From NCBI GenBank assembly GCA_032249735.1, contig JAVVHA010000009.1, positions 1 to 64,000 of the forward strand: a DNA stretch of 64,000 nucleotides, given 5' to 3'. The stretch's first letter is position 1; each line of letters begins with the position of its first letter. Position numbers and translations under genes: made by a program. Shown here piece by piece: positions 2,796 through 8,590 of the stretch. The notes beneath the pieces were generated by a model. It was not told where the DNA came from and made no database searches. It worked only from the letters and a program-made list of their open reading frames with translations. The DNA comes from Dehalococcoidia bacterium (GTDB lineage: Bacteria > Chloroflexota > Dehalococcoidia > SM23-28-2 > HRBIN24).

Positions 2796-3019
2796 CGAAC
2801 CCACCTCCTAGCTCCTTGCGCCAACGGCCCTCCTTGGGGCCTACTCCCCTCCCACAAAGCCTTCACTACCCAAGAAGGAAGGCGTGGGGGTGAGAAAACG
2901 TAAAAACAACGGCGGCATTGAACTCTAATTCGCAATATTTCGCCCTCATTGCCGCAGCGAGGGCATAAATAATGGACACCGGGCGGCAGTGGCTGCGGGG
3001 CCTCGAGTTGCCAGGCCAC
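2792..3019 (-). CDS. Small zinc-ribbon protein
   Basis: I place the start at GTG 3019 (75 residues), where a purine-rich GTAGGGGAGGGGAGG precedes it. A longer reading from GTG 3088 would make the inverted-repeat iterons coding (K-V-V repeats) and is less credible. The core CPRCGNEGEILRIRVQCRRC has two Cys pairs 15-20 residues apart, the layout of a zinc ribbon. The role is probably DNA or RNA binding or protein contact in the element. It sits between the iteron array and the exonuclease, to which it is translationally coupled by a GTGA overlap. Confidence 0.6.
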   Translation of the reverse strand: MAWQLEAPQPLPPGVHYLCPRCGNEGEILRIRVQCRRCFYVFSPPRLPSWVVKALWEGSRPQGGPLAQGARRWVR

Positions 3020-3056
3020 GGCCTCCCCTCCCCTACCTTCGCTTGGAGGGGGTGAC

Positions 3057-3192
3057 TTCACGGGTTTCACGACTTTCACGACTTTCACGTATATCTGTTT
3101 CCCCCTTTTTCTTCGAACTTACCATTAGTAAGCACACCAAAAAAGAGACAACAGATATACGTGAAACCCGTGAAAGTCGTGAAAGTCGTGAA
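3057..3192. repeat. Large inverted repeat made of 9-bp iterons; candidate origin or control site
   Basis: The left arm (3057-3098) has TTCACG at 3057, 3066, 3075 and 3084, exactly 9 bp apart, ending in TATATCTGT. The right arm (3151-3192) is the inverted form: ACAGATATA and then CGTGAA at 3160, 3169, 3178 and 3187. The units are TTCACGACT with one TTCACGGGT variant per arm, placed at different positions, so the arms are not simple copies. A 52-bp AT-richer spacer (3099-3150) with poly-C/T and poly-A tracts separates them. The array lies in the gap between the primase/helicase gene and the zinc-ribbon gene. Iterons beside a replication initiator are a standard origin layout; a regulatory site is the alternative. 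Confidence 0.85.
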
Positions 3193-3203
3193 CCGCAGGG
3201 GCC

Positions 3204-5510
3204 TCATGGCTCCTCTTCCTCCTCGACGATGGTTGGGGTGGGCCCATGTCGCCAGCACCACCAACTGCCCTGGCCATCCTCGGTGTAGTCACCTGGGCGT
3301 CCGCATTCGGCGCAGCGGGGGCCTTGTTGGGGATCTGGGGCTTCCTCCTGTGTTCGGAGGCCGATGCCTTGCCAGCACCATGTGACCTTGCCCTCCACCG
3401 TGCGTTGCACCTCCCGCACCTGGGGTCGCAGCTCCCTGATGCGGCGGGTGAACTCATGGGCGGTAGGCGTGGGCAGGCCATGCCCCATGGCGTAGCGAAC
3501 GTAAGCCCGCAACAATTCCTTCTTGCTCACCACCGCCTCGGCGTGGGTGAAGGTGAATTCATCCAGCCAGCTCCCAATGGGGTCGGTGGCCTCCCGGAAC
3601 TCCCGCCAAGCCGCCTGCATGGAGGGGGTGACGGTTAGCCCCTTCTCTTGCACCCGGGGCAGGACTTCGAGGGCCCGATTCAGAAGTCCTGAAAGCTCAC
3701 CTGGTTGGGTCAGCCGCTCCAGGAGGACGTGCTGGGGCACCTCCCGCTCTGTGCCTCGAAAGAGCCGTTCAAAGGGGACGATTACCCATCGACTGAAGAA
3801 GGCCTCGCTGGCATCGGAGGCCCGGGGTGGATGATTGGCTGAGAAAATCAGCCGGCAGAAGGGGTGGAAGCGAAATTGGTCTCGGTATTTGTGCTCGGCC
3901 ATTAATTCATCGCCTCCCACCAGGGCCTTGAATACAGCTGTGGAAGCCAGGTGCTGGGAGGGCAGGTCGCTACAGATGTTGGCCAACTTCCCCCCCAGTT
4001 GGCCGACAGCAAACCTATTTACCTCCAACTGGTGGAGGGAGAGGCTGGAGACGTTGGCCTTGCCCAAGAAGGCCCGCAGGAGGGCGAGGAAGGTAGACTT
4101 CCCCGTTCCTCCCTCACCTAATAGCAAGACTGCTTTCTGGGGCCAGGGGTGAGGGAGCATGAGCCAGGCCACCAGCTCCCAGGGGACGCCAGCCTCATAG
4201 GCGTCCTCAGGGAAGACCTCCTTGCAGAAGGCCTCGATGGCTGGGCAGGAGGCTGAGGGGTCATAGCGCACGGGGAGCTGGATTGGCGAGAGGAAGTCGG
4301 GGCTGTGAGGGGAGAGCTCCCCCGTCCTCACATTCAGGAGGCCATTCAGAAGGTTGATGGTGTCCAGGGGCGGCCTCTCCCAGAGGGAGGGAGCTTTGGC
4401 TAGTAGGAGTTGGATGGTGTTGCTGACCAGCTCCCCTCGGAAGCGGTGGGCCTCGCCCCACTCCTCCAGAAGCTCCCGCACTCGCCTCCTTACCCACTTC
4501 TCGCCGTCAGGGCGGTAACAGCCATCCTGGTAGACGTAAAGGGCGTCTCCCAAGTCCCTGGCGAAGTGGGCCTCCTTCTCGAGGGCCACGGCCAGGGCGT
4601 GGGCGGTGACCCTACTGGGCGGGGGTGTAACAGGCGAGGGCAGTTCAACGGCTGGCCTCGCCCCTCTCATGAGCGTCTCCATCTCCTGGCGAAAGCGGAC
4701 CCTGTCCCGCTCACACCAGCGGAACAAACCATTGGGGTCTTTGACGTGCTCTGGGGCCTCTATCACTAGCAACCCGGGCACGTCGGATGCCACCTTGTGG
4801 GGGAGGCGGTCGGCGTCCGGCTCCTTCCACAGGTAGACCTTTTCGATGCCTTCCAGGTATCGAGCCCACTCGGGCTGCCAGGAGTCCTTACCTGGGAGCC
4901 CTAAGGCGGGGAGGCCACAAAGCCACAGCGTGGCCGTGTCGGTCTCCCCTTCCACCAGCAAGAGGAAGCCCTTCTTCTTGGCGTCCTCCAATCTGTCGAG
5001 GCCATATAGGCGGGCACGGGCGCCAGGTTCCCACTTGAACCTGGGGCCCTCCTCATTGGTGAGGGCAAGGCGGTAGCGTTTGGCTACGACCTGCCCCCTC
5101 TCGTCCCGATAGGGGATGCATACGGCCGGCTGGCCGCCCTTGCCGCCAGGAGGCCAGTGGGCATCGTGCCATCCCAATTCTTTCAGGAAGCCCAGGGGCA
5201 ACCCCTTGGCCTCGGCCAACTCCTCCAGGCGGAGACCCTTCCTGTGGTTGGCCCCGTTCCCGTTGCTACCGATGACGCCCAATTCCCTGAGTTTGGCTAT
5301 CACTTCCCTCCTGTCGTGGCCGGCGAAACATCGGCCGATGAAGGGCTCCCCTTTTTCATTCAGCCCTTGAAGGCCCAACGATGGGTGCCTGTCGCCATGG
5401 CGGTGTCCTGGCAGGGGGCAGTGGACGGCCCCCTTGCCTCGCTTGGCCGCCTTATGGCACTCGCAGTGGGGGTTGGTGCAGAGAAGAGGCTGGAGGCGGA
5501 TGGCGTTCAT
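3204..5510 (-). CDS. Phage/plasmid primase-helicase (zinc finger, Toprim, D5 and SF3-type ATPase)
   Basis: A 768-residue protein from ATG 5510, preceded by GGAGGGGGTGAGGGC and overlapping the previous stop by 4 bp. The N-terminus has a zinc finger (CTNPHCECHK, HCPLPGHRHGDRHPS). About residues 180-230 contain a Toprim-like stretch (GFLLLVEGETDTATLW, ALGLPGKDSW). The middle is D5-like, and the C-terminal half is a superfamily 3-type helicase with Walker A GEGGTGKST, Walker B-like ANICSDL and the arginine-rich segment SANHPPRASDASEAFFSRW. The last 40 residues form another Cys4 ribbon (CAECGRPGDYT, WWCWRHG) and an acidic tail. It would open and prime the element's replication origin. The iteron array directly behind its stop is the natural target. 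Confidence 0.9.
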   Translation of the reverse strand: MNAIRLQPLLCTNPHCECHKAAKRGKGAVHCPLPGHRHGDRHPSLGLQGLNEKGEPFIGRCFAGHDRREVIAKLRELGVIGSNGNGANHRKGLRLEELAEAKGLPLGFLKELGWHDAHWPPGGKGGQPAVCIPYRDERGQVVAKRYRLALTNEEGPRFKWEPGARARLYGLDRLEDAKKKGFLLLVEGETDTATLWLCGLPALGLPGKDSWQPEWARYLEGIEKVYLWKEPDADRLPHKVASDVPGLLVIEAPEHVKDPNGLFRWCERDRVRFRQEMETLMRGARPAVELPSPVTPPPSRVTAHALAVALEKEAHFARDLGDALYVYQDGCYRPDGEKWVRRRVRELLEEWGEAHRFRGELVSNTIQLLLAKAPSLWERPPLDTINLLNGLLNVRTGELSPHSPDFLSPIQLPVRYDPSASCPAIEAFCKEVFPEDAYEAGVPWELVAWLMLPHPWPQKAVLLLGEGGTGKSTFLALLRAFLGKANVSSLSLHQLEVNRFAVGQLGGKLANICSDLPSQHLASTAVFKALVGGDELMAEHKYRDQFRFHPFCRLIFSANHPPRASDASEAFFSRWVIVPFERLFRGTEREVPQHVLLERLTQPGELSGLLNRALEVLPRVQEKGLTVTPSMQAAWREFREATDPIGSWLDEFTFTHAEAVVSKKELLRAYVRYAMGHGLPTPTAHEFTRRIRELRPQVREVQRTVEGKVTWCWQGIGLRTQEEAPDPQQGPRCAECGRPGDYTEDGQGSWWCWRHGPTPTIVEEEEEP

Positions 5511-5992
5511 GCCCTCACCCCCTCCAGCTGGCGCCCCTCCAGGGCCTGGATTAGCTCCAGTAAGTCCACCGTGCGCTTGGCGTAGGGCCACCATCGCCAC
5601 GGCACGGGCTTTGCGTCCCGGAGGGCGATATATCGCTCACCTCCCCTCACTGGGGCCCGTAACAGCTCAAGGAGGGCGATCTCCCAACACAGACGGCGCA
5701 AATCGTCCCGCACTAGCCAGGCCTGGACACCTAGGCGACATAAAATGCGCACGGCCAAGTCGGGGAGGGAGACAGAGGCTGGCAGCATCCGCCACCGATA
5801 GGGCGTGGCCAAGGTGGGTTGGCCGCCCAGCGCAACGAGCTTGCCTAAGACGATACGCCTGCCGCCCTTGCGCCAGGTGAGGGCCAGGGGGGTATAATGG
5901 CATGGGAGCCCTCGGCAGGGACTCCCCTTTCCAGGCCCGTGCCCCCTCCCCCAGGTGGCACCCGGGCCTTTATTATTGTGTCGTCGGAGCAT
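5507..5992 (-). CDS. Element protein of unknown function
   Basis: A 161-residue protein. I chose ATG 5992 because GGGAGGTGAG precedes it by a good distance; this makes a 20-bp overlap with the RHH gene upstream. The protein is basic at the start and has LPDLAVRILCRLGVQAWLVRDDLRRLCWEIALLELL in pieces that look helical, followed by RYIALRDAKPVPWRWWPYAKRTVDLLELIQAL. I recognise no family. Coupling by ATGA to the primase/helicase suggests a replication-associated role such as a loader or initiator accessory, but this is only positional inference. Confidence 0.6.
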   Translation of the reverse strand: MLRRHNNKGPGATWGRGHGPGKGSPCRGLPCHYTPLALTWRKGGRRIVLGKLVALGGQPTLATPYRWRMLPASVSLPDLAVRILCRLGVQAWLVRDDLRRLCWEIALLELLRAPVRGGERYIALRDAKPVPWRWWPYAKRTVDLLELIQALEGRQLEGVRA

Positions 5993-6206
5993 CGGTCTCA
6001 CCTCCCAACTGGGGCTGGTGCTCTTCGGGGCCCGCCGCCTCCGGCCCGGCAAAGCTCGGGCGGCGGGCTTCTTCTTGCTGAAGCTCCCGGAGGGCCTGTT
6101 GCACCAAGATGGCCACTTGGCAGGCAGGCCTCCGCAGCTCTTTCTTGGCTAGCCTTTTGACTGCAGCCCACACCTCGTCCGAGAACCAAACCCTGACGTA
6201 TGGCAA
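5973..6206 (-). CDS. Ribbon-helix-helix (Arc/MetJ-like) protein
   Basis: A 77-residue protein. I start it at TTG 6206 because GGAGGTGAG lies eight bases upstream and because this puts the strand PYVRVWFSDE at the very N-terminus, as usual for RHH proteins. A longer frame runs up to 6281. The pattern VRVWFSDEVWAAVKRLAKKEL and then QVAILVQQALREL gives the beta-helix-helix order of Arc/CopG/MetJ regulators. The C-terminal 30 residues are Pro/Glu-rich and probably disordered. It likely represses or activates element genes or helps copy control; short iterons in the element are plausible targets. Confidence 0.65.
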   Translation of the reverse strand: MPYVRVWFSDEVWAAVKRLAKKELRRPACQVAILVQQALRELQQEEARRPSFAGPEAAGPEEHQPQLGGETDAPTTQ

Positions 6207-6297
6207 CGCTCTCACCTCCAATCTGGACGTTACAAGAGCCGGGGGTGGCCAGACAATGGAATTTTGGGAAGAGGAAGCCAAAATTCCGCTTATGAGC

Positions 6298-7338: not shown

Positions 7339-8403
7339 TCACGCACCCAGCGCCCTGTCCACCAGCTCCGCCGCCCTCCTGTCCATCTCTGAGAGAGCGT
7401 GGGCGTAGACGTCCAGAGTAACGGAAGCCTGGGTGTGGCCAAGCCTACGCTGCAAGGTTTTCACGTCCAGGCCAGAGGCGGCAAGGAGGGTGGCGTGGCA
7501 ATGTCTCAAGTAGCGGGCGGGCCTCCTGGGCACCCCTGCCCTCTCGCACAGCTCCCTCATAACGTTGCTCACCTGCTTGCTGGAGGGTGGTTTTTCTGCC
7601 CAGAAGAGATGGACACTATTTCGGGGCAGCCTTCTTAGCAGCGCCACGGCCGAAGCGGGGAGGGTCACTATCCTCTCGCCCGCTTTGGTCTTGGGCTTGC
7701 CGATGTGCCAGGTGCTCCCCGCCCAGGTGACGGAACGCCTCACTCGCAAAGCCCCGGCAGCCCAGTCAACATCCTCCCATCTTAGGCCTAGCAGCTCACC
7801 AACCCGTAGGCCTGCCATGAGCATGAGGGCTAAGCCCCAGGCGAGGGGCCGCCCGTCCTCCAGGGCAGCCTGCAGGAAGCGCTTCATGTCCTCCAGCGTC
7901 CAGTCCCTGGCCTCCCTGGGTTGGTGCCGTGGCCGTGGCACCCTCTGCATAGGGTTGTAGCCCAGGAGGCCCCGGCGCACCGCCTCTTCGAGGCAGGCAT
8001 GAAGGGTGGCCCAGCACAGCTCCAGGGAGCGACTGCCCATCCCCTCCCGCTGCAGCTCCTCCAGGGCAGCGGCCAGATGTAGGGGCTCCAGGCGGGAGAG
8101 CCGGAGCCTGCCCATGCGCAACAGGAGGGGCGAGAGCACCTGCCGCCTCCGCCTCAAGGTGGTGGGGCGCCACCTGGCCTCCCCCTCACGCAGCCACAGG
8201 TCGCACCACTCTCCTAGGGTCAGGCGCAGGGGAGGGGCGAGCTGTCCCCGCCGGTGTCTCTCTATGAGGGCCAGCAGCTTCTCCTGGCACTCCCGCCTGG
8301 TCCTGCCTGACACCCAATAGCGGTGCCCGCCCAGCCTGATGGCCGCCTGCCAACCCCGGCCTTTGCGGCGGTAGGTGCCCTCGTGGTTGCCCCGCCTAGG
8401 CAT
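7339..8403 (-). CDS. int: Tyrosine-recombinase integrase
   Basis: A 354-residue phage-type integrase. I use ATG 8403 (MPRRGNHEGTYRRKG), which has GGGAGGGGAG upstream; the frame continues to 8520 but that part would overlap the tRNA and its promoter. The N-terminal arm-binding region is basic (GTYRRKGRGWQAAIR), a SAM-like core-binding domain follows at about 60-150, and the catalytic part has Arg in AGLRVGELLGLRWEDV, the H-x-x-R-type box in LRHCHATLL, His in LGHTQ and the nucleophile Tyr in LDVYAHAL. It would integrate and excise the element. It reads away from the tRNA gene that it probably uses as attachment site. Confidence 0.92.
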   Translation of the reverse strand: MPRRGNHEGTYRRKGRGWQAAIRLGGHRYWVSGRTRRECQEKLLALIERHRRGQLAPPLRLTLGEWCDLWLREGEARWRPTTLRRRRQVLSPLLLRMGRLRLSRLEPLHLAAALEELQREGMGSRSLELCWATLHACLEEAVRRGLLGYNPMQRVPRPRHQPREARDWTLEDMKRFLQAALEDGRPLAWGLALMLMAGLRVGELLGLRWEDVDWAAGALRVRRSVTWAGSTWHIGKPKTKAGERIVTLPASAVALLRRLPRNSVHLFWAEKPPSSKQVSNVMRELCERAGVPRRPARYLRHCHATLLAASGLDVKTLQRRLGHTQASVTLDVYAHALSEMDRRAAELVDRALGA

Positions 8404-8448
8404 GGTTTCTCCCCTCCCGACCTGCGGCTCTGGGGGCGAGGGCGGGCT

Positions 8449-8468
8449 GGCACCATTTGGGCACCATT
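8449..8468. repeat. Direct repeat GGCACCATT, 11-bp spacing, beside integrase
   Basis: GGCACCATT occurs at 8449-8457 and 8460-8468, one 11-bp step apart, between the integrase start and the tRNA promoter. Short direct repeats near an int gene often are arm-type binding sites for the integrase, but they could also be an operator for int. Confidence 0.45.
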
Positions 8469-8498
8469 GGGAGGGCTTTCGGGGAGCGGTGCCGTTGC

Positions 8499-8504
8499 TA
8501 TACT
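8499..8504 (+). promoter_or_regulatory. Probable -10 box of the tRNA-Thr promoter
   Basis: TATACT at 8499-8504 ends 11 bases before the first tRNA base, the expected distance for a -10 box. The -35 region (about 8475-8481, CTTTCG) is poor. If the element integrated at the 5' part of the tRNA, this promoter would be supplied by element DNA. Confidence 0.45.
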
Positions 8505-8515
8505 CTAATGCGGGG

Positions 8516-8590
8516 GCCACCGTAGCTCAGTGGCAGAGCAGCGGTTTCGTAAACCGCGGGCCGTGGGTTCGAATCCCACCGGTGGCTCCA
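8516..8590 (+). tRNA. tRNA-Thr (anticodon CGT), CCA encoded
   Basis: The acceptor arms GCCACCG (8516-8522) and CGGTGGC (8580-8586) pair completely. The D-arm has TAGCTCAGTGGCAGAGCA, the anticodon stem GCGGT/ACCGC encloses the loop TTCGTAA with anticodon CGT, and the T-arm has the canonical GGTTCGAATCC. The discriminator T and CCA (8588-8590) are encoded. The integrase gene on its 5' side makes it the probable attachment site. Confidence 0.95.

Follow-up and report, generated by a model that had tools for sequence, protein, structure and literature searches.

The array at positions 3057-3192 of the window, i.e. the whole 64,000-nucleotide stretch that was analysed, is very probably the replication origin of an integrative element, used by the Rep protein encoded next to it; we put the probability of this reading at about 0.88. 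An origin next to the D5-like primase/helicase gene had already been proposed in a first-pass annotation of this DNA, and it is strongly supported by its position, the Rep family, the element context, the relatives of the locus and the validated origin of the island EcCICFT073, which was used as a positive control. The same annotation knew of no described origin with this architecture, which does not hold, since the published organisation of PICI and SaPI origins matches it (PMC6092414; PMC7581432). The architecture is thus already described for PICIs, and 3057-3192 is a further case of a known kind of origin.

The array is built from two facing iteron sets, one on the left (3057-3089, + strand) and one on the right (3160-3192, - strand), and in both of them four TTCACG units follow one another in exact 9-bp steps and point to the core. 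The complete left arm (3057-3098) reads TTCACGGGT TTCACGACT TTCACGACT TTCACG TATATCTGT and the right arm (3151-3192, - strand) TTCACGACT TTCACGACT TTCACGGGT TTCACG TATATCTGT, with a spacer of 52 bp from arm to arm and 70 bp between the innermost TTCACG units. The GG/AC variation concerns unit positions 7-8 and affects a different unit in each arm, the GGGT variant being unit 1 in the left and unit 3 in the right. Layout, coordinates and the shifted variant had all been described correctly in the first-pass annotation; its shared box at the inner end of each arm is also real, its true length being 10 bp (TATATCTGTT, matching between the arms).

Between the innermost units lies a 70-bp AT-rich core (3090-3159), the probable melting region, which contains the mirrored TATATCTGTT boxes (3090-3099 and 3150-3159), T/A tracts and, on the dyad centre, the inverted repeat CTTAC-CATTA-GTAAG (CTTACCATTAGTAAG, 3118-3132). 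The spacer was rightly called AT-rich, with a GC content of 38% vs 61-64% in the neighbourhood, and a degenerate dyad with the same centre extends into the core, 98 of the 136 positions being symmetric, a feature that the first-pass annotation had overlooked. The array lies 11 bp past the rep stop codon (3204-3206, - strand), that is, behind the primase gene as had been claimed. Runs of four identical hexamers at a fixed step were obtained in 0 of 1000 dinucleotide shuffles of 2901-3400, even in one arm, and elsewhere in the window such a run is present at one place only, in tiles covering 1431-1511. In the 1.73-Mb genome the triple motif is found only at the two arms, the reversed-pattern control giving 0 matches.

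The second place belongs to a pair of direct-repeat arrays (1431-1511 and 1613-1677) with steps of about 10 bp, all in one direction, located between a resolvase-like gene and a small ORF. They show TTTCGTCCA-type and then TTTTCTGCA-type units, both beginning with GGGATTTTCC, and could be regulator or recombinase sites.

The Rep gene (3204-5600, - strand, start codon uncertain) encodes a primase part, a D5_N/DUF5906 helicase of the P4 family and a C-terminal winged helix. Residues ~53-290 of the 798-aa ORF match families of phage DNA primases, D5_N and DUF5906 come next, and the protein scores 182.7 bits against TIGR01613 ('phage/plasmid primase, P4 family'; cut-off 108.7). The AlphaFold2 model of residues 329-798 (mean pLDDT 89.5) displays the helicase core and the winged helix at ~693-748 (3357-3524, - strand), the candidate iteron reader; the term winged helix is a reading of the secondary structure in the model, the RFX-type sequence matches being weak. 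SaPI5 Rep, the primase-helicase of PDB entry 7ola, is the best structural match of the model in the PDB and also the best profile match (E 8.5e-39), with a low sequence identity of ~21%. Close relatives by whole Rep were found neither in genome contigs nor in viral contigs. The protein closes (3204-3320, - strand) with a zinc-finger-like tail, CAECGRPGDYTEDGQGSWWCWRHG, followed by an acidic end; the confident part of the model stops before both.

Concerning the genomic context, Rep and the array sit on an element that is integrated, has its att sequence in two copies and has an empty site that is known. The att core at this end (8512-8557) is a 46-bp sequence identical to G000:C26:15371-15416; it covers the 5' half of the target gene, a tRNA-Thr (CGT; 8516-8590, + strand), and in a genome of the same genus (G401) the left flank from G000:C26 and the right flank from the window are joined without interruption, which together with the two att copies identifies the integration. 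The tyrosine integrase gene (7339-8520, - strand) has an uncertain start codon, and its listed ORF just overlaps the tRNA. On the same strand the order is integrase, a 289-aa protein, an RHH protein (5973-6281), Rep and the array, followed by a small zinc-ribbon-like ORF, a PD-(D/E)XK exonuclease (1983-2804, - strand), which is part of a replication/recombination module, and a weak Holliday-junction-resolvase match.

Among the PICI criteria, an integrase with a specific attachment site (the 46-bp att in tRNA-Thr) is present, and so is a pri-rep followed by a PICI-type origin. PICIs typically have as regulators a divergent Stl/Rpr pair or, in Gram-negative hosts, AlpA; they are small, carry no lytic phage genes and show induction and packaging that depend on a phage, with which they interfere. 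Searches of Pfam, NCBIfam and PHROGs gave no Stl or AlpA match among the visible integrase-Rep genes of this partly assembled element, where an RHH protein is present, and the portal (PF04860) and terminase (PF03237) families have no match in the genome, the element being incomplete at the contig end. The element would replicate in the manner of a PICI, and as a whole it may or may not belong to the PICIs. Because it runs off the start of the contig in the window, with part of it missing from the assembly, another origin may lie on the missing part, and the one-directional array at 1431-1511 should be noted in this context.

Several further observations concern the element and its surroundings. 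Beside the att core at both ends (8446-8500; G000:C26:15417-15500, L062) there is the same set of motifs, GGCACCATT in repeated form with an inverted GGTGCC, and these look like arm-type integrase binding sites. By inserting in the 5' half of tRNA-Thr (8495-8557) the element replaces the native region upstream of the tRNA, and it supplies a TATACT box immediately in front of that gene, which may serve as a substitute promoter. A second integrase of the same genome (G000:C23:1-3200, L067), closely similar over the C-terminal part, has a tRNA-like sequence next to it, together with a primase/D5_N gene that is truncated by the contig end, i.e. a sister element whose origin region is unassembled. 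An ORF for a Dockerin-/TolB-like surface protein (2-950), open at the contig start, falls in the expected element region and is either cargo or an assembly effect.

In PICI and SaPI origins an AT-rich core is located between two iteron sets just 3' of rep (PMC6092414; PMC7581432). The SaPI iterons, directly downstream of rep, are read by the C-terminal domain of Rep (PMC7581432), and it is this organisation that the present locus resembles. The origin of EcCICFT073, an island of E. coli CFT073 (L323), was tested experimentally, in E. coli DH5alpha, and is functional (PMC6092414). Its Rep belongs to TIGR01613 (110.2 bits vs the 108.7 cut-off) and aligns by profile with the present Rep family (E 9e-30), and past the rep stop we find two facing sets of TCTACC units spaced by 9 or 11 bp; when the array detector was run on EcCICFT073, the origin site was the only match in 49 kb. 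Common to both loci are the TIGR01613 Rep, facing sets directly 3' of rep, the 9-bp step, the AT-rich core and the setting in an integrase element. They differ in unit sequence (TCTACC vs TTCACG here) and in the gap between the detected sets (104 vs 70 bp here), and EcCICFT073 has mixed 9- and 11-bp steps with further scattered units, as well as capsid-type genes and a shown induction by phage. The phage record PI-Sepi-HH2 (L071), with facing 9-bp units, was set aside as a control in favour of EcCICFT073, since it may not be a PICI.

To see the locus within its family, 268 related-helicase loci from Chloroflexota genomes, plasmids, phages, genome contigs including archaea, and IMG/VR were grouped into 150 clusters at 70% identity. 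Facing chained hexamer arrays are found at 56 of 150 rep 3' ends, compared with 6 of 132 upstream and 5 of 654 distal windows, figures that are counts and not independent trials, as the clusters share descent, the distal windows of the same contigs being the matched control. A stricter 7-mer test gives 43/149 downstream, 5/138 upstream, 9/946 distal and 4/1490 in shuffles. A detector tolerant to mismatches (8-mers with one mismatch) yields 61/148 downstream vs 16/136 upstream, 33/432 distal and 16/296 in shuffles; since this background is high, the exact tests were relied on. By the count of chained hexamers, a detectable array is present in only ~37% of the related loci. An exact-hexamer scan left the Chloroflexota loci beyond the window nearly empty because it required at least five fixed-step copies, the arrays there being revealed by the chained detector and by reading. 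An alignment of 13 helicases was too divergent for a pattern search, smaller alignments being effective.

The arrays show steps mostly of 8-10 bp with a mode at 9, a median inner gap of 65 bp and a median centre 65 bp past the stop, and the present array is well inside these distributions. Compared with the rep gene, the AT content of the core is higher by 15 points in 38 well-delimited cases, and on the inward-reading strand the DNA just inside the iterons is T-rich. The 9-bp step was considered as a codon artefact and this was rejected, as the excess at rep 3' ends is not confined to 9 bp (52 per 100) but is seen equally at 8 bp (22) and 10 bp (32); distal windows have a weak 3-periodic signal, with 9 per 100 at 9 bp. 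At six loci (L036, L045, L050, L055, L083 and L251) the centre of the facing arrays falls inside the 3' end of the rep frame, and the 'GTAATC' repeats of L046, inside the rep ORF and near a contig end, were left out of the origin count. Where two array-bearing loci have similar C-terminal domains, they have an iteron hexamer in common in the same orientation in 13 of 566 cases and in the opposite one in 2 of 566, a bias that, in small numbers, fits a Rep C-terminal domain that would read oriented iterons.

The nearest Rep found, with 44% identity, is that of L036, from a genome of the same class (G312). Like the present locus, L036 has units with a CACG core, equally oriented and spaced by 9 bp, around a core of 70 bp, but its array is inside the 3' end of the rep frame, ~175 to 45 nt before the stop, and its ORF is without the primase part; the origin of L036 would seem to form part of the sequence coding for the Rep tail. 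The first-pass annotation had named absence of the array from relatives keeping the gene as a point against its reading. Many helicase-keeping relatives do have an array, including L036 with the same iteron core, whereas in L075 and L076, two other near relatives with the helicase, no array is seen.

These comparisons also bear on what else the array could be. It could act as an operator only, with the RHH protein, another small DNA-binding protein or Rep bound to the arms and controlling downstream transcription; iteron-like arrays can indeed serve regulators, the RHH gene is nearby and the downstream genes are transcribed through the array. We nevertheless consider this very unlikely, since a scan for sigma-70-type promoters found no such site at the array, the layout is tied to helicase gene 3' ends across unrelated neighbourhoods, rather than to promoters or the 5' side, and the equivalent layout is a functional origin in EcCICFT073. 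A dual operator may be an additional role of the array.

Even less likely is a structural origin of the pRN1 type, in which the symmetry, as cruciform or hairpin, would be recognised instead of the repeated units. The archaeal plasmid pRN1 depends on a stem-loop of 100 bp located 3' of its rep gene, which codes for SF3 helicase and winged-helix parts, and this origin is sufficient for replication together with the rep operon (PMC4234260). The present locus resembles it in having a long dyad (~100 bp in pRN1) 3' of a rep with primase, SF3 helicase and winged-helix parts, and the entire 136 bp form an imperfect dyad with a folding z of -9.9 vs shuffles. The pRN1 origin differs in being described as a stem-loop without iterons, and its primase domain is archaeo-eukaryotic. 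Against this reading, the GGGT unit differs here between the arms without compensation, the units repeat exactly along each arm, and both unit repetition and step are conserved in relatives; moreover, binding by Cch2 of SCCmec depended on direct repeats, its inverted repeat being dispensable (PMC7581432). Least likely of all is that the array terminates the rep transcript, the alternative that the first-pass annotation had itself raised, or stabilises it as an RNA hairpin: a long dyad at the gene 3' end with a predicted RNA hairpin of -94.7 kcal/mol would suit this reading, but a terminator fails because the T-run is missing after the dyad on the rep strand, where no terminator-like site was found either, there is no Rfam match, and termination would not call for 9-bp units repeated in facing sets.

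As a replication origin, the array would be of the theta type and served by the Rep encoded just before it. The winged helix at the Rep C-terminus would bind the 9-bp units, and the inverted sets would nucleate two Rep rings in opposite orientation, between which the 70-bp core with its mirrored T/A tracts would melt. The self-loading helicases would then travel away from each other, with priming by the N-terminal primase part, so that the excised circle would probably be replicated bidirectionally. A mirrored layout of this sort would be required by two self-loading rings that oppose each other. Cch2 of SCCmec moves 3'-to-5' (PMC7581432).

What is somewhat new is such an origin in Chloroflexota, and the recurrence of the plan and of its 9-bp step far outside PICIs. 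The facing layout occurs behind related rep genes in phages, plasmids and islands. As background, outside the evidence used here, a Streptococcus thermophilus phage has an origin downstream of a primase gene. Judging from the survey, the PICI origin plan seems to extend well beyond the published cases and to follow a simple 9-bp rule. We lean towards a geometric form of this rule, with ~9 bp per Rep DNA-binding domain, a T-tract, a 50-70 bp AT-rich core and, beyond the core, the mirror image; if true, origins would be readable directly from the sequence, and the iteron would be expected to follow the Rep C-terminal domain. With the 9-bp rule, many phage and plasmid origins could be tested directly, and a predicted origin with its initiator, for a mobile element of a poorly tractable phylum, is the minimum for testing a replicating vector.
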